From a virus, in IMG/VR virus record IMGVR_UViG_3300023257_000045, positions 1 through 44,757 of that record: a DNA stretch of 44,757 bases. One strand, 5' to 3'. This document shows positions 5,106 through 43,719 of this stretch, in pieces. Under the pieces are notes generated by a model that saw nothing but the letters and a program-made list of their open reading frames with translations, ran no database searches and was not told where the DNA came from. The position numbers and the translations under genes are program-made. How positions within the stretch are numbered: position 1 is the first letter of the stretch; every line of letters begins with the position of its first letter.

Positions 5106-5135
5106 TTGACAAATATAATATATTATGATATATTT
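5106..5135 (+). promoter_or_regulatory. sigma70-type promoter with inverted repeat
   Basis: TTGACA 5106-5111, exactly 17 bases, TATATT 5129-5134. The arms AAATATA (5111-5117) and TATATTT (5129-5135) form an inverted repeat overlapping the spacer and -10. The same arrangement is found at 30994 and 41490. The first gene downstream is a ribbon-helix-helix protein that could bind here. Confidence 0.7.
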
Positions 5136-5155
5136 GGTTTACAAAGGAGGTTGAT

Positions 5156-5326
5156 ATGGCAAATACAACTATTTATTTTCCAGATGATAGTAAAACGAAA
5201 GAACTTTTGAAGAGGGTTGAGATTTACAGAGCAACGCACGAAAAACTATTGAGTCACAAGCCTTCATTTTCGGAATGCGTCATTAGGGGATTAAAAAAAT
5301 TAGTAGAAGTCGATAAAAATAAATGA
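5156..5326 (+). CDS. ribbon-helix-helix DNA-binding protein, 56 aa
   Basis: Starts MANTTIYFPDD, a short strand typical of Arc/MetJ-like proteins. Two helices follow (TKELLKRVEIYRATHEKLL and FSECVIRGLKKLVE). Such dimers bind operator DNA with the N-terminal strand. The ribosome binding site is AAAGGAGG. It lies directly behind a strong promoter with an inverted repeat, so it may repress its own transcription and possibly the two similar promoters further right. That is inference. Confidence 0.65.
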   Translation: MANTTIYFPDDSKTKELLKRVEIYRATHEKLLSHKPSFSECVIRGLKKLVEVDKNK

Positions 5327-5327
5327 T

Positions 5328-5339
5328 GACCTTCGGGTC
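5328..5339 (+). other. UUCG tetraloop hairpin
   Basis: GACC-TTCG-GGTC, a 4-bp stem closed by a stable UUCG loop, two bases after the stop of the ribbon-helix-helix gene and 23 bases before the helicase start. No U-tract follows, so it is not a standard terminator. It could be an RNA stabiliser or attenuate readthrough into the helicase. Confidence 0.4.
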
Positions 5340-5362
5340 GGGAAAATTCGGAGAAATAGCCG

Positions 5363-8002
5363 ATGTTACTATTACGAGCTCCAGATAGCTCCCATGTTGG
5401 ATATTTTGAAGCGGTTGTTCACGGAGACAATTTTTCGTCATATGTTGATGCCCTTAAAAATACTCCCACTAGAGTCTGGGAATCTAAAGCTAAAGTTTGG
5501 CGTATATCAATTTGCGATTATAATATTTTAATAAAAAATTGCAAGGATAAAGGCCTAAATAGCATAGATGTAGATAATAAGTTAAAAGGTATATTAGCAT
5601 CTTATAGAGCTTGGGAATATAATACTAAAGCATTGATAGCTGAAGATGATGTAGAGTTATGCGTTGACGCTTCTATCCTAAAAATTCCAATGATGCCCCA
5701 CCAAAGAGTTGCTCTTAAATTCTTTCTCGAAAGAAAAACAGCTATAAACGCAAGCGAAATGGGATGCCTATCTGGAGACACAGAATATCTTTCCCCGACA
5801 GGGTGGAAAAAAATATCTCGATATCATGGTGGTAAAGTTTGCCAGACAACAAAAGAAGGAATTGCGTCTTTTACTCTCCCGAAAGCATACATCAAAAGAC
5901 CTTGCAAGGAAATGTTTCGGTTTCATCATACCAGAGGTCTCGACCAAATGTTAAGTCCCGAGCACCGAGTTTTAACTTTTTCAGAAAATGACATAGGAAC
6001 GGTTATCTCAGCCGAAAATTTGGCTCGTAGACATGACGAAAACGAAAGTGGATGCAAGGCAAGATTTTTAGGTGCTGTTTCGCTTGAAAGGAAAACGACG
6101 ATAAAATTATCGGAAGCTCAGCTAAGGCTCCAAGTTGCCTGTATGGCAGACGGGAGTTTTCCCTATCCGAGAAGATGTAGGGTGCGATTAAAGAAGCAAA
6201 GGAAAATTATTAGAATTAAAAGATTGTTGGAAGATGCGAAGATTGAATACCATTTTAGACTCGATACTGATGGCCTAAGTAGTTTTGAGTTTACTCCACC
6301 GATAAGCACGAAGATTTTCACTAAAGGGTTCTGGAAAGCCTCGCTAGCCCAACGACAGATTATTTGCGATGAAGTTCGTTATTGGGATGCTACTATCAGA
6401 AAGGCAGGAGCCGTTACCTTCTGCGCCCAAAACAAACAAGATGCAGATTTTATTCAATACTGTTTTATTTCTACCGGCAGACGTGCAAGAGTAACGGTTT
6501 CAAAAGATAGAGGATATTTTTCGACAGGATATATTGTCCATGCAGTAGGCAACGGAAGAAGCGGAAACTATATTCATATCGGAACGGCAAAGAAAAATAT
6601 CTCAATTCAAAAGTCACCTGATGGGTTTAAATATTGTTTTGAAGTTTCTGATACTTTTTTACTCGTTCGAAGAAATGGATGCGTGTTCGTAACGGGTAAC
6701 ACAGGCAAAACTTTTCCCGCCTTGGTGGCTGCTAAACATCTTTACGATACTGGTCAGATAAAATCTTGCTTGGTAGTTTGCATAGCGTCTGTAAAGTGGA
6801 ATTGGGCTAGGGAGGTCGAGAAATGTTTAAACGGAGCTACTTATAAAGTGATTGAAGGCCCTCAAGAGAAAAGAATTGAAGGCTATATGTCAAAAGCTCA
6901 TTTTAAAATAGTAAATTATGAAATATTAAGAAATGATATTGACCCTATACTTTATGACACTACTTTTGATTGTATCATAGTTGATGAAATTCATAGAATA
7001 AGGACCTATAAAGCTAAGCAAACGAGGGCCCTTTACACCCTTGGGAAAACAGCTACTTATAAATATGGTTTGACTGGAACTCCTATTCAAAATAAATTAA
7101 ATGATTTATTTTCAATAATGAGATTTGTTCATCCTAGTATTCTTGGAAATTGGTTTGCCTTTGATAGGCGATATGTAATAAAAGGATATTTTGGAGAGAT
7201 AGCTGATTATAGAAGACTCGATGAAGTTCATGATAAATTAAAAACAATAATGTTTAGAAGATTAAAATCAGAAGTATTGAAAGACCTACCCCCAAAAGTC
7301 TATAATGATATTTTAATAGACTTATCTCAGAAGCAAAGAAAATTTTATAATGATGTTAAGAACCAAATTCTTGAATCTAAATCGGAAGACGTGGAAGATA
7401 AGATAAATGCTCAAGCTAAACTTTTAGCTAATATTACATTTTTGCGAGAAGTTTGTGACTCTTGTGAATTGATTGACCCTTTAGTGAATGCATCCTCAAA
7501 GCTAAAAGAACTTAAGAAGATTGTTCCAGAGATATTGGAAAACGGCCATAAAATAGTCATCTTTTCCCAGTTTAAAAGAATGATTTATATAATAGAACGA
7601 GAATTGAAGTTGCCAGCTATACTATTAACAGGAGACGTTTCTACTACTGGTGGAGCTAGGGATGAATTGATAGATGAATTTAAGGAGTCTAAAAAGAAAA
7701 ATTTATTTTTGATGACTACTGCAGGAGGAGAAGGGATAAATTTACAATGTGCTGATTATGTAATATTTTTTGATTTACCTTTTAACCCACAAGTAATGGC
7801 TCAGGTCGAAGATAGACTACACAGAAAAGGACAGAAGTCTACTGTTAACGTTATCAGATTACTGGCTAAAAATACTATCGAAGATAGGGTGTTAGATATT
7901 TTAAAATTTAAAACAAAACTCTTTAAAGCCGTAGTAGATGGAAAATCAGTTAATCCAGTAGTTTTGACTCAAAAGGAATTATTAAATGCTATTGAACTAT
8001 AA
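5363..8002 (+). CDS. SNF2/DEAD-type superfamily II helicase with intein in Walker A
   Basis: ATP-dependent DNA translocase or helicase. A short N-terminal domain comes first (VWESKAKVWRIS, HARP-like). The Walker A loop is interrupted: EMG (to 134), an intein (135-446), then TGKTF (447 on). The spliced product is about 567 aa, against 879 aa translated. Motif II is DEIH (541-544), motif III LTGTP, and the C-terminal lobe carries FSQFKRM, TTAGGEGINLQ and QVEDRLHRKGQ (motif VI). These identify an SNF2-like phage helicase, probably for replication or recombination restart, as it is followed by the loader, helicase and primase genes. The weak ribosome binding site (GGAG) may limit expression. Confidence 0.9.
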   Translation: MLLLRAPDSSHVGYFEAVVHGDNFSSYVDALKNTPTRVWESKAKVWRISICDYNILIKNCKDKGLNSIDVDNKLKGILASYRAWEYNTKALIAEDDVELCVDASILKIPMMPHQRVALKFFLERKTAINASEMGCLSGDTEYLSPTGWKKISRYHGGKVCQTTKEGIASFTLPKAYIKRPCKEMFRFHHTRGLDQMLSPEHRVLTFSENDIGTVISAENLARRHDENESGCKARFLGAVSLERKTTIKLSEAQLRLQVACMADGSFPYPRRCRVRLKKQRKIIRIKRLLEDAKIEYHFRLDTDGLSSFEFTPPISTKIFTKGFWKASLAQRQIICDEVRYWDATIRKAGAVTFCAQNKQDADFIQYCFISTGRRARVTVSKDRGYFSTGYIVHAVGNGRSGNYIHIGTAKKNISIQKSPDGFKYCFEVSDTFLLVRRNGCVFVTGNTGKTFPALVAAKHLYDTGQIKSCLVVCIASVKWNWAREVEKCLNGATYKVIEGPQEKRIEGYMSKAHFKIVNYEILRNDIDPILYDTTFDCIIVDEIHRIRTYKAKQTRALYTLGKTATYKYGLTGTPIQNKLNDLFSIMRFVHPSILGNWFAFDRRYVIKGYFGEIADYRRLDEVHDKLKTIMFRRLKSEVLKDLPPKVYNDILIDLSQKQRKFYNDVKNQILESKSEDVEDKINAQAKLLANITFLREVCDSCELIDPLVNASSKLKELKKIVPEILENGHKIVIFSQFKRMIYIIERELKLPAILLTGDVSTTGGARDELIDEFKESKKKNLFLMTTAGGEGINLQCADYVIFFDLPFNPQVMAQVEDRLHRKGQKSTVNVIRLLAKNTIEDRVLDILKFKTKLFKAVVDGKSVNPVVLTQKELLNAIEL
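5765..6700 (+). mobile_element. intein with degenerate LAGLIDADG endonuclease
   Basis: 312 residues read through in frame inside the helicase gene. The first residue is Cys (CLSGDTEYLS, block A), with block B MLSPEHRVLT. The end is FEVSDTFLLV...VFVTGN followed by Thr as the +1 nucleophile. The penultimate residue is Gly where His is usual. The middle has a LAGLIDADG-like helix (RLQVACMADGSF) and a weaker second candidate (IICDEVRYWDA), so a homing endonuclease is present but may be worn. The insertion point is the GTGKT loop, a highly conserved site that favours homing. Confidence 0.88.
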
Positions 8003-8009
8003 TCAATCT

Positions 8010-8029
8010 CCCGAAGTGAATACTTCGGG
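8010..8029 (+). other. perfect hairpin 1 of 3
   Basis: CCCGAAGT-GAAT-ACTTCGGG, 8 bp plus a possible T-G closing pair. First of three closely spaced perfect hairpins after the helicase gene. It could be a terminator-like or RNA-processing element. No U-run follows. Confidence 0.6.
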
Positions 8030-8032
8030 GTA

Positions 8033-8047
8033 TTCGCTGAAAGCGAA
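8033..8047 (+). other. perfect hairpin 2 of 3
   Basis: TTCGCT-GAA-AGCGAA, 6 bp with a 3-base GAA loop, three bases after hairpin 1. Confidence 0.55.
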
Positions 8048-8060
8048 GGGTTGTGTATAT

Positions 8061-8081
8061 ATTACCTACGAAGTAGGTAAT
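8061..8081 (+). other. perfect hairpin 3 of 3
   Basis: ATTACCTAC-GAA-GTAGGTAAT, 9 bp with the same GAA loop as hairpin 2. Because it is perfect, it would form equally as a DNA cruciform or single-strand hairpin. Confidence 0.6.
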
Positions 8082-8094
8082 AGATAATTTATAT

Positions 8095-8122
8095 ACTATA
8101 TGTTTATACACTATATGTTTAT
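8095..8122 (+). repeat. 13-bp tandem direct repeat
   Basis: ACTATATGTTTAT occurs at 8095-8107 and 8110-8122 (15-base period), in an AT-rich stretch right after the three hairpins and before the 8164 gene. Such iterons next to replication genes can be initiator binding sites or regulatory sites; neither is shown. Confidence 0.55.
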
Positions 8123-8163
8123 TATAGGGGAACATATAAGACAGGGAAACAGGAGATTATTTA

Positions 8164-30993: not shown

Positions 30994-31023
30994 TTGACAA
31001 ATGAAATATAATATGATATATTT
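30994..31023 (+). promoter_or_regulatory. sigma70-type promoter before radical SAM gene
   Basis: TTGACA 30994-30999, 17 bases, TATATT 31017-31022. Arms AAATATA (31004-31010) and TATATTT (31017-31023) form an inverted repeat as at 5106. It should drive the radical SAM gene and could read into the structured RNA behind it. Confidence 0.7.
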
Positions 31024-31055
31024 GATATTGTCGGTATATTATCTTGGGGGTGTGT

Positions 31056-33020
31056 TTGAAAATAGATACCAGTTCGTTTAAGTCAGTTATAAAGGGTCAT
31101 AAACTTCAAGGCGATAGCTATGATGAGGGGATAAAGGGAATGTTTGACACCGACATCCCTTGTAATCCTACTGACTTCAAAACCTGTCTAATCCATACCG
31201 TTCCATACTACACGGGAGCGGGAATGATGGGTGTTCATATTATCCATAATGTCTTGAATAATATTAAAGATGTTTGTGTAGATTATTGTTACCTTCCTGA
31301 ACCATCTATCCGCAAAGTATTAAAATCTGGAAAAATCCCTCTCTTTGGCTTCGGAACAAAAATTCCGTTGAGGGAGTTTGATGTTTTGGGCTTTAGTATG
31401 TTCTTCGCTCCTAATATTTGTAATATGGTTCATATTGTAAAACTCGCTAATATTCCTTTTCTTGCCGAGGAGAGAGGTGAAGGATGGCCTATTTTTCTTT
31501 CTGGAGGTGTTTTAAATACTGCACCAGAATCTATTGCTCCTATTTTTGATGTTATGTTTATCGGAGAAGGCGAAGAGCAGACTCCTGTTATAATCAATAC
31601 TATAAAATTTATGAAGAAAGATGGAAAGAAGAAGGAAGAAATTTTAAAGGCAATAGCTAAAATCCCCGGCTGTTATGTTCCGAGGTTTTATGAAAACATT
31701 TTCGACCCTATTACGAAAAGATATATTGGTTATAAAAAATTGTGGGATGGAGCTCCTGATAGAATAGATTGGCAAAAAGTAGACATATCTAATCCTAAAT
31801 ATAATTATACGATTGTTGACTATAAAAAGGATGTGGCTCGGAAGAGACTATATTTGACTAAAGATGTCGAAGTAACGAGAGGTTGTGTTCACGGCTGCAG
31901 ATTTTGTGCGCCTTTTTCTTGGTATAAGCCATATAGAGAAAGAAACTTTGAAGGGGTGAAAGAAGCCATTAAGGCCCGAGAGGAAATGGGGACTGTAAGG
32001 ATGATGGGCTTGACTCCTACAGATTATTCAAGATATAATGAGGCGAGGGATTATGCTATAAGTCTTGGTATTCAGTATGACGGATATTCAGAAAGAGTAG
32101 ACCAGTTCGAGAGGACTTGGGATGACCATAGGAAGAAAAGGTCGGTCTGTTTTGCTCTTGAGTGTGCGGGTGAGTCTATGAGGAGAAGAATAAATAAGCA
32201 TTTATCGGATAATGTTTTTTGGTCTGCCTTTAAGAAGGCTATCAAAGAGGGTATAGTAAAGACAAAGGTTATGTGTATGATAGGTTTACCTTTTGAGACT
32301 AAAGAGGATGTTATCGGGCTTCATAATTTAATGGATGAGATGTGGAAAGCTTCGAGAGCAATAAGGCCTATGTCCGCTATAGAGTTATCCGTAAATCCGT
32401 TTTTACCCAAGCCTCACACTCCTTTTCAATGGTGTGCACATAAAGAGAGCCCTTGGATGGCAGATTATGTTAGGATTTATAATGAAAAGTTTAATGACGG
32501 TTCTTTTGTCGTTTTCGATGAAAAATTAAATAGAAATGTTGTTAAGGGTTGGAGAAATGTTAAAGGTTCTCCTACGGGGAGGAAGTTAGAGTCTTTACTC
32601 GATAGGTCAGATAGACGGTTTTGTTTGCCGATGATACAATCTATTCTTAAATTCAATATATATTCAGAACAAGATTGGGGAGAGTCAAATTCTAAACTTT
32701 GGGTAGGCATAAAAAGTTATATGAAGTCAATCCATAATTATGATGTAGATGATGTTTTAAGGGAGTTTAAATTTGATGAGCCTTTGCCTTGGGATATAGT
32801 CGATGTTGGAACAAGTAGGGAATTTTTGTGGGCCGAGTGGCAAAAGGCCGCAAAAGCAGAAGAAACCGAAGGATGCAATTTTGGTTGTTCGGATTGCGGG
32901 ATAATGCAGAAGCATCCAGAGTTGGTTAAAAATTCAGTTTGTAAGAAAAAGAAGGAATGGTTTGATAAATCCAATCCTTCAGGGGTTTTACAAAAAGCTC
33001 CGAAGCAGGAAGAAGGATGA
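31056..33020 (+). CDS. B12-binding radical SAM protein (TIGR03960-like)
   Basis: Radical SAM enzymes cleave S-adenosylmethionine at a 4Fe-4S cluster. The cluster motif is CVHGCRFC (Cys277/281/284). The N-terminal part is a cobalamin-binding-like Rossmann domain (REFDVLGFSMFFAPN, IFLSGGVLNTAPE, FIGEGEEQTP). The core continues GLTPTDYSRY, CFALECAGESMRRRINKHL and CMIGLPFETKEDV. The C-terminal EFLWAEWQKA...CNFGCSDCG matches the TIGR03960-type family, whose reaction is unknown. 654 aa. Start probably TTG 31056 after a GGGGGTG ribosome binding site (TTG 31044 and GTG 31050 are less well spaced). Very unusual cargo for a phage. Confidence 0.85.
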   Translation: MKIDTSSFKSVIKGHKLQGDSYDEGIKGMFDTDIPCNPTDFKTCLIHTVPYYTGAGMMGVHIIHNVLNNIKDVCVDYCYLPEPSIRKVLKSGKIPLFGFGTKIPLREFDVLGFSMFFAPNICNMVHIVKLANIPFLAEERGEGWPIFLSGGVLNTAPESIAPIFDVMFIGEGEEQTPVIINTIKFMKKDGKKKEEILKAIAKIPGCYVPRFYENIFDPITKRYIGYKKLWDGAPDRIDWQKVDISNPKYNYTIVDYKKDVARKRLYLTKDVEVTRGCVHGCRFCAPFSWYKPYRERNFEGVKEAIKAREEMGTVRMMGLTPTDYSRYNEARDYAISLGIQYDGYSERVDQFERTWDDHRKKRSVCFALECAGESMRRRINKHLSDNVFWSAFKKAIKEGIVKTKVMCMIGLPFETKEDVIGLHNLMDEMWKASRAIRPMSAIELSVNPFLPKPHTPFQWCAHKESPWMADYVRIYNEKFNDGSFVVFDEKLNRNVVKGWRNVKGSPTGRKLESLLDRSDRRFCLPMIQSILKFNIYSEQDWGESNSKLWVGIKSYMKSIHNYDVDDVLREFKFDEPLPWDIVDVGTSREFLWAEWQKAAKAEETEGCNFGCSDCGIMQKHPELVKNSVCKKKKEWFDKSNPSGVLQKAPKQEEG

Positions 33021-33029
33021 TTTTAGTTC

Positions 33030-33540
33030 TTTGATATGTTGTAGAGTTACAACGCATTATATGTGCGGGAAAGCTACAACAAAACTATATGAGAGTGGCA
33101 GTTGATTAGATAGCCTAACAATGGTATTTGTCTCCTGTGGCAATATCGGACAGCATTATCATCAGCTAAAACTAACGCAGGAAAATCAGCGGTGATAATG
33201 TTGGCAAAACTGCAGACCAACTGCCTCTCTTAACAAGGCTATACAGGAAACGCTAGAAGGATGATGGATTGTAACGCCTATTGTATAAACCGAATAGCCT
33301 TGTAACATTTAGGCTCTGAGGAGAAATCCTCCCCACGGAATTCATCCGTAAAGAGCCTTAATGAGCCCTACGCATCACCGTTTATGGAGCTGTTGTGGGG
33401 CGACTATTGTTCCGCTTGAGGGTCACTTAACAATATCCTCTTTGCTGAAATCCCCAGCCTCTACGCTAGCTAAGTGAGGTTGTGGTAAACGGGGTGGTAT
33501 TGCGTACCGTTTATGGAACGAAGTACCACCCTTGGTTTAA
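33030..33540 (+). ncRNA. large structured RNA, about 500 nt, class not identified
   Basis: No long ORF, and visibly more GC than the flanks (32 of 60 at 33361-33420). Perfect or near-perfect helices cover it: 33038-33044/33074-33080; 33091-33104/33218-33229 (12 bp, one bulge); 33154-33163/33191-33200 (10 bp); 33233-33242/33294-33303 (10 bp); 33311-33317/33352-33358 enclosing two hairpins (33318-33331 with a GAAA tetraloop, 33335-33349); 33423-33429/33471-33477; 33492-33499/33524-33531 (8 bp). 33378-33384 can pair with 33486-33492 and close the 3' domain. Size, ornate folding and phage location recall the ROOL and GOLLD RNAs, but I cannot confirm membership. Not tmRNA, RNase P or intron by visible motifs. 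Confidence 0.82.
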
Positions 33541-33558
33541 TATTTAGGAGGAAAAGAT

Positions 33559-33579
33559 ATGTCTATAGGAGCATGGTAA
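33559..33579 (+). CDS. possible six-residue peptide MSIGAW
   Basis: ATG TCT ATA GGA GCA TGG TAA with an excellent ribosome binding site (AGGAGG, 7 bases upstream) just after the structured RNA. Could be a real peptide, a ribosome landing site or a remnant. Listed because the initiation signal is too good to ignore. Confidence 0.3.
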   Translation: MSIGAW

Positions 33580-33613
33580 TTTGTCTAAATCCGTTAACCA
33601 TCACGGAGAATGG

Positions 33614-33633
33614 GGGACTGTCACGGCAGTCCC
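33614..33633 (+). terminator. strong hairpin downstream of structured RNA
   Basis: GGGACTG-TCACGG-CAGTCCC, a 7-bp perfect stem, followed by TAATATTTAG. It could stop or stabilise the RNA transcript or mark the 3' end of a larger RNA. Not a classic U-tract terminator. Confidence 0.5.
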
Positions 33634-33655
33634 TAATATTTAGTTTGGAGGAAAG

Positions 33656-33781
33656 ATGGAAGAAGTAGGAAAGAGTTTAATAATTTCAAGTTTCGTATTT
33701 TTTGAATTAATAATGAGTTCTTTGTTTGTGATTTTGGTTTATAAAGTTATTAAATGCGTTATAAGAGATAGAATAAAGTAA
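33656..33781 (+). CDS. small membrane protein, 41 aa
   Basis: One long hydrophobic helix (SLIISSFVFFELIMSSLFVI) with a basic C-terminus (RDRIK). Strong ribosome binding site (TTTGGAGGAAAG). It could be a small holin-like or other membrane protein, but it is not near a lysin, so no role is claimed. Confidence 0.55.
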   Translation: MEEVGKSLIISSFVFFELIMSSLFVILVYKVIKCVIRDRIK

Positions 33782-33821
33782 CATTTAGCTTGTGGCGGGA
33801 TAGACAGAAAGGCAGGCAGAC

Positions 33822-34106
33822 ATGATAGTAAAGATTAAAGAAAGAGGAACACAGTACGGAAGTTTTAGTTTCTTTGAGGGCGATTCGATAACTCAGAGCC
33901 TTTCAAAGGATATATCTTTAGCCGAGTTGCAGAAAATATGCAACAATGATACATTATTTTTGGTGTTGGTTAAGGATTGCGACGAAAAGCAAGAGTTTTT
34001 AGGTATTCACGTTTATAAGAATCACAAGCCAGTTCAATGGATTATGACAAACAATCCATGTTATTTAATGAATAATGAGGGTAGAACAATAGAAAAACTT
34101 TATTAA
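33822..34106 (+). CDS. hypothetical protein, 94 aa
   Basis: Not recognised. Strand-rich (VKIKERGTQYGSFSFFEGD, LFLVLVKDCDEKQEFLGIHV). The end (VQWIMTNNPCYLMNNEG) is aromatic. Ribosome binding site AAAGGCAGG. First gene of the packaging side. Confidence 0.5.
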   Translation: MIVKIKERGTQYGSFSFFEGDSITQSLSKDISLAELQKICNNDTLFLVLVKDCDEKQEFLGIHVYKNHKPVQWIMTNNPCYLMNNEGRTIEKLY

Positions 34107-34158
34107 TATTTTTTATATCCCGTCACAAGATATAAAAACAATCAAGGAGGACAAAGAA

Positions 34159-34902
34159 ATGAGTTTACCGTTACCAGAAATAAAAAAAATTAAAATAACA
34201 GATTTAAGTCCAAACGACTATAATCCGCAGGAGATGCCTAAAGATAAATACAAAGGATTAGTCGGGCATATGCGTTCAGTAGGGTTTACGGACCCGCTCA
34301 AGATAAGGCCTAAAGGAGAGGAAGACCCAGAGACTATTAAGACTCCTTATGTATTGGTAGATGGCGAGCATAGATTAAGGGCTTTTATGGAGGTCTTTTC
34401 GGAAGAAGATGAGATACTTTGTGCAATAATGAAAGGTCCATCAGGCAATCCTTTGTCAAGAACAGAAGCTGTCATAAGCACAATAGCTTATAATTTTCAG
34501 CATGGAGATGAAAATCCCATCAAGATGGCCTCGGCTCTTAAGATAGCTTTAGATGATGGAATCTTAATGGAAGATATTGAAGATTTAACTGGGATGAAGA
34601 GAAATAGGATAGAAAATTTTATGGATTTTAGTAATCTTCCAGTAGGCGGAGGAGGAGCTATAGATGGGCCAGGCTTTGAAGGTTCGGGTGGAGGCGATGG
34701 GATTGAAAGAAAAGAAGCTATAATAATAAGTTTTTCTGTTTACCCAGAAGATAGGGTAAAGATAGAGGCAATCTTGAAAAAGGCAGAAAAGTTTCTTGAG
34801 CCTGAGACAGATATTGATGAGGCAAGAGGGAAGCAATTATTGATAGCCTTAGAGGGCTCAGAAGCATCATTGGATGAGCGGTTGAAGTCCCAAGAAGGTT
34901 AA
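34159..34902 (+). CDS. ParB/Srx-like nuclease-domain protein
   Basis: ParB N-terminal-like fold: IKITDLSPNDYNPQEM, GLVGHMRSVGFTDPLKIRP, VDGEHRLRAF (the DGEHR nucleotide-binding motif) and a helical part (LTGMKRNRIENF) like the ParB HTH. Such proteins (some are CTP- or ATP-dependent) often precede the terminase in phages; role unclear, perhaps genome segregation or packaging. 247 aa. Ribosome binding site AAGGAGG. A Gly-rich linker splits it from a C-terminal helical piece. Confidence 0.8.
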   Translation: MSLPLPEIKKIKITDLSPNDYNPQEMPKDKYKGLVGHMRSVGFTDPLKIRPKGEEDPETIKTPYVLVDGEHRLRAFMEVFSEEDEILCAIMKGPSGNPLSRTEAVISTIAYNFQHGDENPIKMASALKIALDDGILMEDIEDLTGMKRNRIENFMDFSNLPVGGGGAIDGPGFEGSGGGDGIERKEAIIISFSVYPEDRVKIEAILKKAEKFLEPETDIDEARGKQLLIALEGSEASLDERLKSQEG

Positions 34903-34984
34903 AATACGTTTATTGAGATAATTTCTGTAAGGTTAAGCAGGAGCTAGGGTTAGATAAAATTGACAGCGTGGAAAGCGTGGAATA

Positions 34985-35461
34985 ATGGACGAGTTGCCAA
35001 AAAGACATTTTAAGGTAATGGACGTAGTGATAGTTAGAAACGGGCTATCAAGGGTGTCTTTCTATATAGATGAGATAGATAATACTTTTGGGATAGAGGA
35101 TTCGGTTGGCATTCTTCTTGAAGGAGAAACTCTTGATATTCTTGTGACAGCTAAAGACTATGCTGGCTCGGGAAGATATTTTATTAAGGGGTTGGTAATG
35201 GATGATTTGAAAAAGGGCTGGAAAGAAGCGAAACGGGTGGAGACTAAAGTCAAAGCCTTTATTGAAGACGTATCATCCACAGGCAAAGAAGTTTGGATGT
35301 CTGATACTTTACGGTATCTTGGTTTTGATGAGTTAGACGTTTATTCTTTGAGAATGTCCTTGGAGGAAGAATACGGAGAATTCATAACGGGTAAGATGAC
35401 CGTTGATAGTAAGGTCTCTGAGGTCGTTGAGGTTGTAAAGAAAATATTTCGTCCACAATGA
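34985..35461 (+). CDS. acyl-carrier-protein-like domain lacking the attachment serine
   Basis: The C-terminal ~60 residues read LRYLGFDELDVYSLRMSLEEEYGE, then VDSKVSEVVEVVKKIF, as in acyl carrier proteins (LGFDSLDxVELxMxLEEEF...TVgdvvdyi). The attachment site DSL is DEL here, so the phosphopantetheine-bearing Ser is missing. The first ~90 residues are an unrelated strand-rich domain. 158 aa. It may be a structural reuse of the fold rather than a carrier. The match is by pattern only. Confidence 0.5.
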   Translation: MDELPKRHFKVMDVVIVRNGLSRVSFYIDEIDNTFGIEDSVGILLEGETLDILVTAKDYAGSGRYFIKGLVMDDLKKGWKEAKRVETKVKAFIEDVSSTGKEVWMSDTLRYLGFDELDVYSLRMSLEEEYGEFITGKMTVDSKVSEVVEVVKKIFRPQ

Positions 35462-35468
35462 GGATATA

Positions 35469-36410
35469 ATGATAGATATTAATGTTTTTGACGGTATATA
35501 TGTTAGTTCTGTTATCTCCCCTGTAATACCTATTAACGTAGGAATTGAGGGGAATATTAAGGTTGTCGAGTCAGTTAACATAAGTCCTTTGATAAAAAGG
35601 ACTACAGTTGATTGGTTGAAGATAAATGAGTTGATATATATCCAGTTGGTAAAACAGCCGATAATAGTTGATTCCCAGATAAGACCAGAAATTATAATAG
35701 AGCAGGAGTTTGACCTGACGAAGAAAGAATTATTGTATCAGGTTGAACTTATTGGAAATCCATCTGAGGATAGAAAGAAAAAGGTAGTAAGATATTTCTT
35801 TGCCTTAAAGGCTTCTGTTAGGGAAATAGCGGATAATTTAAAAGTTTCTCCTTCGGTTGTTTACAAGGACATCAATAATTATAAAAGAGATGTCCTAAAA
35901 GAAATCAAGAGAGACTTAAGAACGAATAAGAAAATATTAGGCCATATGGCCGGAATGATGTATCAGATTGAGCATCAGGTAAGGACTATTTGGGATAAAT
36001 ATAATCTGTTAGACGCAGATGCTTACGCATTAAGGGCCATAATAAGAGACTCAACCACTCCTGAACAGAGAAGAGAAAACCAAACTGCCATTATAAATGC
36101 AGCTAAAACTGTATTGTTGATTCACGATAGGCAACAAGGATATTTAGATTTGCTTGGAAAGAAAACTATGAATATGTTGGCTGTTTGGGATAAATTTGGC
36201 TTATGTGGGGACGAAGCCATTAAGCTTATATTATCTGATGGGGTCGATATTGATGCGAAAATACATCAGGTCAGAGGAATAATCGTGAATTTAATTTCTA
36301 TAGTAAAGGTAGAGGTTAAGGACTCAGAGCAAAGAAAGAAAGTGTTTACCAGAATAGCAAGGGAGACTAACTTCAATGATGTCGAAGAAGCTGAAATCAT
36401 CAAATCCTGA
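35469..36410 (+). CDS. probable terminase small subunit
   Basis: Directly upstream of the large subunit and overlapping it by 35 bases. Central HTH: FALKASVREIADNLKVSPSVVYKDI (about residues 115-140), as in DNA-recognising small terminase subunits. The C-terminal half is helical and suits oligomerisation. The strand-rich first ~70 residues are unusual. 313 aa is long for a small subunit. Recognises the packaging site, by position and HTH. Confidence 0.62.
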   Translation: MIDINVFDGIYVSSVISPVIPINVGIEGNIKVVESVNISPLIKRTTVDWLKINELIYIQLVKQPIIVDSQIRPEIIIEQEFDLTKKELLYQVELIGNPSEDRKKKVVRYFFALKASVREIADNLKVSPSVVYKDINNYKRDVLKEIKRDLRTNKKILGHMAGMMYQIEHQVRTIWDKYNLLDADAYALRAIIRDSTTPEQRRENQTAIINAAKTVLLIHDRQQGYLDLLGKKTMNMLAVWDKFGLCGDEAIKLILSDGVDIDAKIHQVRGIIVNLISIVKVEVKDSEQRKKVFTRIARETNFNDVEEAEIIKS

Positions 36411-42486: not shown

Positions 42487-43719
42487 ATGACTAACCCTAA
42501 AGCTAAAAATAGATTACACGCATCAAGAGTGGATAGGATAGCTATTGTTGACCGTCCTGCCGTTCCTGATGCTCAAATACTTGTGTATAAAAGGCACAAT
42601 GAAGATATTTCTGATGGATTAACTTCTATCATTGAAAAAGGAATATGGTCTACAGGCTTTAATGCGAGTTTTGTAATAAAAGGCACGCAAGCAGCAGTAG
42701 ATGCTTTGGCTAATGAAGTTTATGATGCTATTTATGATGATGGAGACGCTAATCAGGGCGTAGCGATTAAAGAAGCTTTCGATGACTTTAGGGATGTTGT
42801 CGTAAACTTTCTTATGAAACTAGCGAAAAAGGTAAAAGCAGAAGAAGATGCCTCAAATAAGCTCACCAAAGAGGATATTATTAAGCCTTTTGCTAGAGGA
42901 TTAACGCTTACCGCTATGGATAGTGTCTTTCAATATTTTAGATATAGCATTTCATCATTAGTTTTGGCTCATAAGATGATGGCTGAGCCAGAAGCGACCA
43001 TAAATGACGTAATAAGTCAATTTGAAAAATTTATAACTGAATCTGCTATGGAAATCGTAGCGAATAAAAAAGAAGGCGATGAACCTGCCTTCGAAAAAGC
43101 TGGAAGAACTATATCTATGGCCCGGCTCGGAAAGATAAAAGAAGCCATTTCAGTATTGAACGATATGGTGGAGGAAACACACATCCGCTATAGCGAAAAG
43201 TCAAAGAAAAAGGAGGAGGAAAACACGATGGAATTGAAAGAACTTATAAAACAGTTTGAATCTCTTTCGGGTAAAATCGACTCCATTGTATCAGCTCTTA
43301 AGGGAAAAGGAATGTTGTTGAACGAAGAAGAGCTTGGTATATATACGGAGAAGAGCAAATCTGAAGAGAAGCTTAGAATTGAGACCGAAGGGGTTGAAAC
43401 TAAAAAGCTTGACCTTATCGCAAGAGCGAAAGTTCTTGGGTTAGAAGAAAATGCTTCTGAATCTGATATTATCGGGGCCGAGAAGAAGGCTGAGATTGAT
43501 GTTAAGAAAACAGAAGAGGATGTTATTGAGGCTGATAAGAAAAAAGCCGATATAGCTGAAGCTCGAATAGTGAAAATCGAAGCGGGGCTAGAAAACTTTG
43601 ATAAGATTACTGCTGTAATCTCAAAGAAGTTTGGGCTAAAGACATCTAAGGACGAAGAAGTTGAGTCCGAGAAGGATAAGAGTGACGTATTCGGAGAAGC
43701 TATAACAGGTAAGGCATAA
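42487..43719 (+). CDS. phage scaffold-type protein (XkdF-associated), 410 aa
   Basis: N-terminus (RVDRIAIVDRPAVPDAQILV) is typical of the protein after XkdF-type proteases. The body is helical. The C-terminal 160 residues (LKELIKQFESLSGKIDSIV..., Glu/Lys-rich) look like a scaffolding coiled coil. Directly follows the protease gene. A strong internal ribosome binding site precedes ATG 43228 (see nested entry), so a short form is probable. Confidence 0.65.
   Translation: MTNPKAKNRLHASRVDRIAIVDRPAVPDAQILVYKRHNEDISDGLTSIIEKGIWSTGFNASFVIKGTQAAVDALANEVYDAIYDDGDANQGVAIKEAFDDFRDVVVNFLMKLAKKVKAEEDASNKLTKEDIIKPFARGLTLTAMDSVFQYFRYSISSLVLAHKMMAEPEATINDVISQFEKFITESAMEIVANKKEGDEPAFEKAGRTISMARLGKIKEAISVLNDMVEETHIRYSEKSKKKEEENTMELKELIKQFESLSGKIDSIVSALKGKGMLLNEEELGIYTEKSKSEEKLRIETEGVETKKLDLIARAKVLGLEENASESDIIGAEKKAEIDVKKTEEDVIEADKKKADIAEARIVKIEAGLENFDKITAVISKKFGLKTSKDEEVESEKDKSDVFGEAITGKA
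43228..43719 (+). CDS. nested scaffold short form (internal start)
   Basis: ATG 43228, in frame with the 42487 gene, is preceded by AAGGAGGAGGAAAACACG, the best ribosome binding site of this gene group. It would make a 163-aa acidic coiled-coil protein (MELKELIKQFESLSGKID...), as lambda Nu3 is made from inside gene C. In-frame nested starts are known for scaffolds; whether it is used here is inference. Confidence 0.5.
   Translation: MELKELIKQFESLSGKIDSIVSALKGKGMLLNEEELGIYTEKSKSEEKLRIETEGVETKKLDLIARAKVLGLEENASESDIIGAEKKAEIDVKKTEEDVIEADKKKADIAEARIVKIEAGLENFDKITAVISKKFGLKTSKDEEVESEKDKSDVFGEAITGKA

Follow-up and report, generated by a model that had tools for sequence, protein, structure and literature searches.

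A predicted structured RNA of about 500 nucleotides adjoining a radical SAM gene in a phage genome

Genomic setting of the RNA stretch

The analyzed window is a phage record consisting of one contig of 44,757 bases, in which replication, terminase, portal, and head genes are present and all major genes are carried on the plus strand. A radical SAM (rSAM) gene (31044 to 33020, plus strand), the nearest NCBIfam model of which is TIGR03960 with a score below the cut-off, lies directly 5′ of the stretch studied here. This stretch starts right behind the rSAM stop codon at 33020 and is followed by small open reading frames (ORFs) and then by a ParB-like gene at 34159, with the terminase genes located nearby at 35.5 to 38.1 kb. 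The sequence and its alignment with related phages point to a probable promoter of the rSAM transcript at 30995 to 31023 on the plus strand (TTGACA, 17 nt, TATATT); the TTGACA and AT-rich −10 elements before the rSAM gene align in all four phages, three of which have the exact −35 element. No convincing promoter of its own was found in the sequence for the RNA stretch. Downstream of it, a terminator-like hairpin at 33613 to 33634 (plus strand) is a candidate 3′ end of the transcript. In the region 33539 to 33640, two terminator-like hairpins flank a six-codon ORF (MSIGAW). This ORF has a strong ribosome site, and the string AATATTTAG occurs 5′ of it, with a second copy after the second hairpin.

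Noncoding character and base composition

The original prediction described 33030 to 33540 as gene free, with a raised G+C content and at least nine helices, and the first two descriptions hold. The stretch contains no open frame, and stop codons are as frequent as in random sequence in each of the six frames. The window has just two ORF-free stretches of at least 150 nt, and the RNA maps to one of them. Searches of its plus-strand frames revealed no Pfam domains, and no protein similarity of the stretch to the related phages was detected. The G+C content is 43%, compared with a phage mean of 35%, and the GC skew is 0.06, compared with 0.30 ± 0.09 for the phage, a value reached by 0.6% of the phage windows. 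Elsewhere in the window, a short ORF-free stretch (8003 to 8163) after a SNF2 helicase gene contains three strong hairpins, and a z score of −4.6 was obtained for 7990 to 8163.

Anatomy of the predicted fold

The whole folded unit, a predicted structured noncoding RNA, spans 33037 to 33538 on the plus strand and is supported by folding energy, positional entropy, strand asymmetry, skew, and the lack of an ORF. All features described below are on the plus strand, and the helices named in the original prediction were recovered in the minimum free energy (MFE) fold at their predicted positions with high pair probabilities. The unit begins with a 5′ hairpin, P0 (33037 to 33081), formed by the helices 33037-33044/33074-33081 (probability, 0.94) and 33053-33057/33063-33067 (0.85). 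The terminal closing helix, P1 (33082-33087/33533-33538), is the weakest main helix, with a probability of 0.51. In the MFE fold, P2 to P8 surround one junction closed by P1, with about 20 unpaired linker bases, and there is no gap between P2 and P3, P8 and P1, or P0 and P1.

The P2 domain (33090 to 33232) is built on a 14-bp helix (33090-33104/33218-33232; probability, 0.96 to 1.0) and contains four inner hairpins (33106 to 33118, 33123 to 33147, 33151 to 33203, and 33204 to 33213), including the helix 33151-33163/33191-33203, with a pair probability of 0.99. A possible kissing loop within P2 would join UCCUGU (33133 to 33138) with GCAGGA (33177 to 33182), the entire 6-nt loop being complementary; with a P value of 0.12 for the best such pair, it is suggestive and not significant by itself. 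P3 (33233 to 33303) has a perfect 10-bp helix (33233-33242/33294-33303; probability, 0.98). P4 (33306 to 33363) is a three-way element closed by 33311-33317/33352-33358 (probability, 0.98) and carries a GAAA-capped hairpin (33318 to 33331; probability, 0.79) and a second hairpin at 33335 to 33349.

The 3′ part of the unit consists of four hairpins. P5 (33365 to 33401; probability, 0.93) has the tip ACCGUUUAUGGA at 33377 to 33388, and P6 (33410 to 33449) and P7 (33453 to 33485) have partly complementary loops, CACUUAACAAU and GCUAGCUAA. P8 (33491 to 33532; probability, 0.94) is terminator-like, with a weak, U-rich tail, and has the tip ACCGUUUAUGGA at 33506 to 33517. The P5 and P8 tips are thus 12 identical bases, with no third copy in the window even at one mismatch. 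Repeats of 12 nt occur in 0.5% of the shuffled sequences and in 7% of the other phage windows, and the placement of the repeat at two hairpin tips is a stronger argument than its length. The linker UAAAC (33486 to 33490), which lies between P7 and P8, is complementary to the P5 and P8 loops, and the linker GUAAACGG is complementary to both tips and could pair with either. Within P6, 18 of the 19 bases at 33426 to 33444 are complementary to 42867 to 42885, in the mRNA of the gene at 42487 to 43719. Antisense pairing with this gene was rejected, because the score corresponds to the 99th percentile of the shuffles and several places had been examined.

Folding statistics and strand preference

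The MFE of the 516-nt fold is −174 kcal/mol. Relative to dinucleotide-preserving shuffles, which served as the null model, the MFE z scores are −4.84 for 33035 to 33534 and −6.48 for 33030 to 33545, and the domains are also significant individually, with z scores of −4.1 (P2), −4.9 (P3-P4), −4.65 (P4 alone), and −3.8 (P5-P8). The fold is also sharply defined. Pairs of the MFE fold have an average probability of 0.86, compared with 0.62 in the shuffles, and this value exceeds that of all 120 shuffles. The positional entropy (0.47 versus 1.10 ± 0.27) is lower than in any of the 120 shuffles and lower than in every one of the 129 phage windows sampled. The plus strand folds better than the minus strand by an energy difference of −26 kcal/mol, compared with −8.5 ± 6.5 kcal/mol in the shuffles, none of which (0 of 150) reached this value, and G-U pairs contribute to the plus-strand fold.

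Two measures turned out to carry less information. The original prediction argued that so many long stems would be improbable by chance, and this argument fails: helices of at least 5 bp number 15, compared with 14.7 ± 2.0 in the shuffles, which is the chance level. The stem count therefore proves nothing, and the conclusion that the RNA is structured stands on the other measures. In addition, coding windows at 35530, 38435, and 43235 also reach MFE z scores of −5.4 to −7.1, so that a low MFE by itself does not set the element apart. One of these regions contains an extreme RNA structure at 35490 to 35650, inside the gene at 35469 to 36410 (z score of −7.1 for 35530 to 36029), and most of the DNA of this region is conserved in a relative. 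The case for an RNA is the combination of the missing coding signal, the skew, the sharpness of the fold, and the strand bias. The central claim of the original prediction, a large, ornate phage RNA, is supported by the folding z scores, entropy, strand bias, skew, and lack of an ORF, and 33037 to 33538 very probably encodes a real structured RNA.

Comparison with known RNA families

Rfam searches over the entire window identified no family at its threshold, and at E values of up to 10 the RNA stretch gave only chance-level matches. The original assignment to ROOL or GOLLD found no support, since neither Rfam model matches at an E value of ≤10. The ROOL covariance model detected nothing in the window, whereas the control, the ROOL RNA of Lactobacillus salivarius, was detected at 130.4 bits; the GOLLD model likewise detected nothing in the window, and its control genomes also remained below the cut-off. 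The models of OLE, HEARO, tmRNA, and RNase P, which had been considered along with ROOL and GOLLD, do not match the RNA stretch, and neither do those of group I and group II introns. ARAGORN predicted no tmRNA, and no tRNA genes were found in the window or in the overlapping near-identical contigs.

The ROOL RNA of L. salivarius pMP118 is 520 nt long (PMC5643018). The best-folding 520-nt stretch of the pMP118 ROOL region was used as a yardstick and has a z score of −5.8 and an entropy of 0.54, compared with 1.18 in its shuffles. The MFE z score and entropy of the phage RNA and ROOL (RF03087) are therefore nearly equal, and both have a sharp, multibranched fold. ROOL RNAs are phage or prophage RNAs of 520 to 660 nt, a length comparable to the approximately 500 nt found here. 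However, the sequences are unlike, with no model match at an E value of ≤10, and ROOL is often, although not strictly, found near phage tRNA genes, whereas the RNA here has no tRNA nearby. GOLLD (RF02032) is likewise large, structured, and found in phages, including those from lake samples, but many of its members exceed 800 nt (PMC12286853), compared with about 500 nt here, and the phage RNA shows neither a model match nor a nearby tRNA. OLE resembles the phage RNA in being structured, with a multiway junction and a length of about 600 nt, but it has a bacterial rather than a phage setting and its model does not match. By analogy, the phage RNA may work like ROOL or GOLLD, while membership in either family is unsupported.

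Homologues and related phages

Blastn against phage and plasmid records at E values of up to 10 revealed no homologue of the RNA. Scans of IMG/VR for an 18-mer from the three-way element and for the kissing-loop pair were equally negative, as were covariance models that were built for P2 and P4-P5 from the single sequence and run over 185 kb comprising the window and the related phages. An IMG/VR scan with a loop 15-mer gave 76 matches, all of them chance-like, and a genome scan gave one match, by chance, in a Paludibacteraceae contig. The downstream 94-amino-acid (aa) ORF, used as bait, also revealed no relative.

Three related phages encode rSAM proteins that are 87%, 74%, and 70% identical to that of the window and keep the rSAM-ParB gene order; two of them, L002 and L020, are from metagenome 3300035698, an Antarctic lake coassembly (PMC8542988). 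The RNA element is absent between rSAM and ParB in all three relatives, which have small ORFs or nothing there. The original prediction had named the rSAM neighbor; the gene does adjoin the RNA, but the neighborhood is probably incidental, since the three relatives keep the gene order with no RNA downstream. Coconservation of the RNA with the rSAM gene was rejected for the same reason. The absence at the locus in relatives and the lack of a detected homologue indicate an accessory module that is an orphan for now. The element is spanned by none of the near-identical contigs, which stop at 32549 or begin only at 34267, 34325, and 35238. That four such contigs from other assemblies each break off beside the RNA (32549 to 35238) hints at strain variation.

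L020, the relative with the 70% identical rSAM protein, has a 429-nt ORF-free stretch directly upstream of rSAM. A tRNA-Ala gene (5135 to 5221) overlaps the start of this stretch and is followed by about 270 nt of structured noncoding sequence (5222 to 5494); the MFE z scores of 5157 to 5585 are −4.8 on the plus strand and −2.7 on the minus strand. Like the phage RNA, the L020 sequence is noncoding, strongly structured, and located beside the same rSAM gene. However, it lies upstream of rSAM and adjoins a tRNA-Ala gene, whereas the phage RNA lies downstream with no tRNA. ROOL and GOLLD have been described from this kind of setting, in which large structured sequence adjoins a tRNA (PMC12286853), but neither model matches the L020 stretch. 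Homology between the L020 stretch and the phage RNA was rejected, as they show no sequence similarity (P = 0.51).

Alternative explanations

The main rival, although an unlikely one, is that the stretch is a long cis-acting leader or attenuator controlling the downstream region (33656 to 34902), with its small genes and ParB-like gene. P8 followed by UUGGUUUAAU would then be a first terminator, the hairpin at 33613 to 33634 a second one, and pairing of the linker with L5 or L8 the switch. The terminator-like form of the second hairpin, the weak U-rich tail behind P8, the complementarity of the linker to both tips, and the MSIGAW ORF with its strong ribosome site between the hairpins are consistent with this model, but a length of 500 nt would be highly unusual for an element of this type, the U-tracts are poor, no relatives of the 94-aa ORF were found, and ParB occurs in the related phages with no such RNA. 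A still weaker candidate is a ROOL or GOLLD RNA that has diverged so strongly that the Rfam models miss it; the size class, the phage setting, the GAAA loop, and a folding profile nearly equal to that of ROOL argue for it, whereas the failure to match at an E value of ≤10 when the ROOL control worked, together with the missing tRNA, argues against it.

Two further explanations are each very improbable. Insertion or loss of the element, as suggested by its absence at the locus in relatives, would suit a degraded element of some kind, such as the remnant of a mobile ribozyme (group I or group II intron), but no intron model matches, the element leaves every gene intact, with a stop codon before it and a ribosome site after it, and the fold is sharp rather than decayed. 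The many inverted repeats, the phage context, and the nearby terminase genes would suit a DNA element with hairpins, such as a replication origin or packaging site, but the folding advantage of the plus strand, which lies beyond all shuffles and to which G-U pairs contribute, favors an RNA over a DNA hairpin element. Least probable of all, and hardly to be expected, is degenerate coding sequence that is structured by chance, a concern raised with the original prediction. Other phage coding windows can indeed reach strong MFE z scores, but the random-level stops in all frames, the lack of a Pfam match in the plus-strand frames, the gene-unlike GC skew, and the lack of protein similarity to the relatives speak against it.

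Proposed mode of action and implications

The preferred explanation, which we consider about as probable as all others together and which draws on the analogy with ROOL and GOLLD, is that the stretch encodes a free, stable, trans-acting, compact structural RNA of about 500 nt on the plus strand that belongs to no described family. The RNA would be transcribed with or after the rSAM gene, and the 3′ end of the transcript would lie either close to 33540 or farther downstream, at the 33634 hairpin. It would then fold with P1 closing a seven-arm junction (P2 to P8). The identical tips L5 and L8 (GUUUAU) may be competitors or partners in binding the linker UAAAC, and the GUUUAU-UAAAC contact may form within one molecule or between copies. 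By analogy, its most likely role in the course of infection would be that of a trans-acting structural or scaffold molecule, either by itself, as an oligomer, or together with a protein. It may have been acquired as a variable accessory module, and its absence between rSAM and ParB in the relatives is as expected of such a module.

Only a small number of large structured RNAs have been described from phages. Two of them, ROOL and GOLLD, assemble into cages made of RNA alone, with no known purpose, the ROOL cage being homo-octameric. The fold evidence comes from one sequence, and a new class is possible. A bolder and rather improbable reading is that the RNA represents a new class of large phage RNAs that is unrelated in sequence to ROOL and GOLLD and forms an RNA-only homo-oligomer through the GUUUAU tips and the UAAAC linker. 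If this were true, this phage group, with the L020 stretch, would carry unrelated large RNAs at one locus. The RNA is short enough for in vitro transcription, which makes oligomer formation directly testable. One more RNA that shares this folding profile but is unrelated to these two would extend this kind of RNA beyond the described families, and the accessory position suggests that phages exchange such RNAs in the way they exchange other optional modules.
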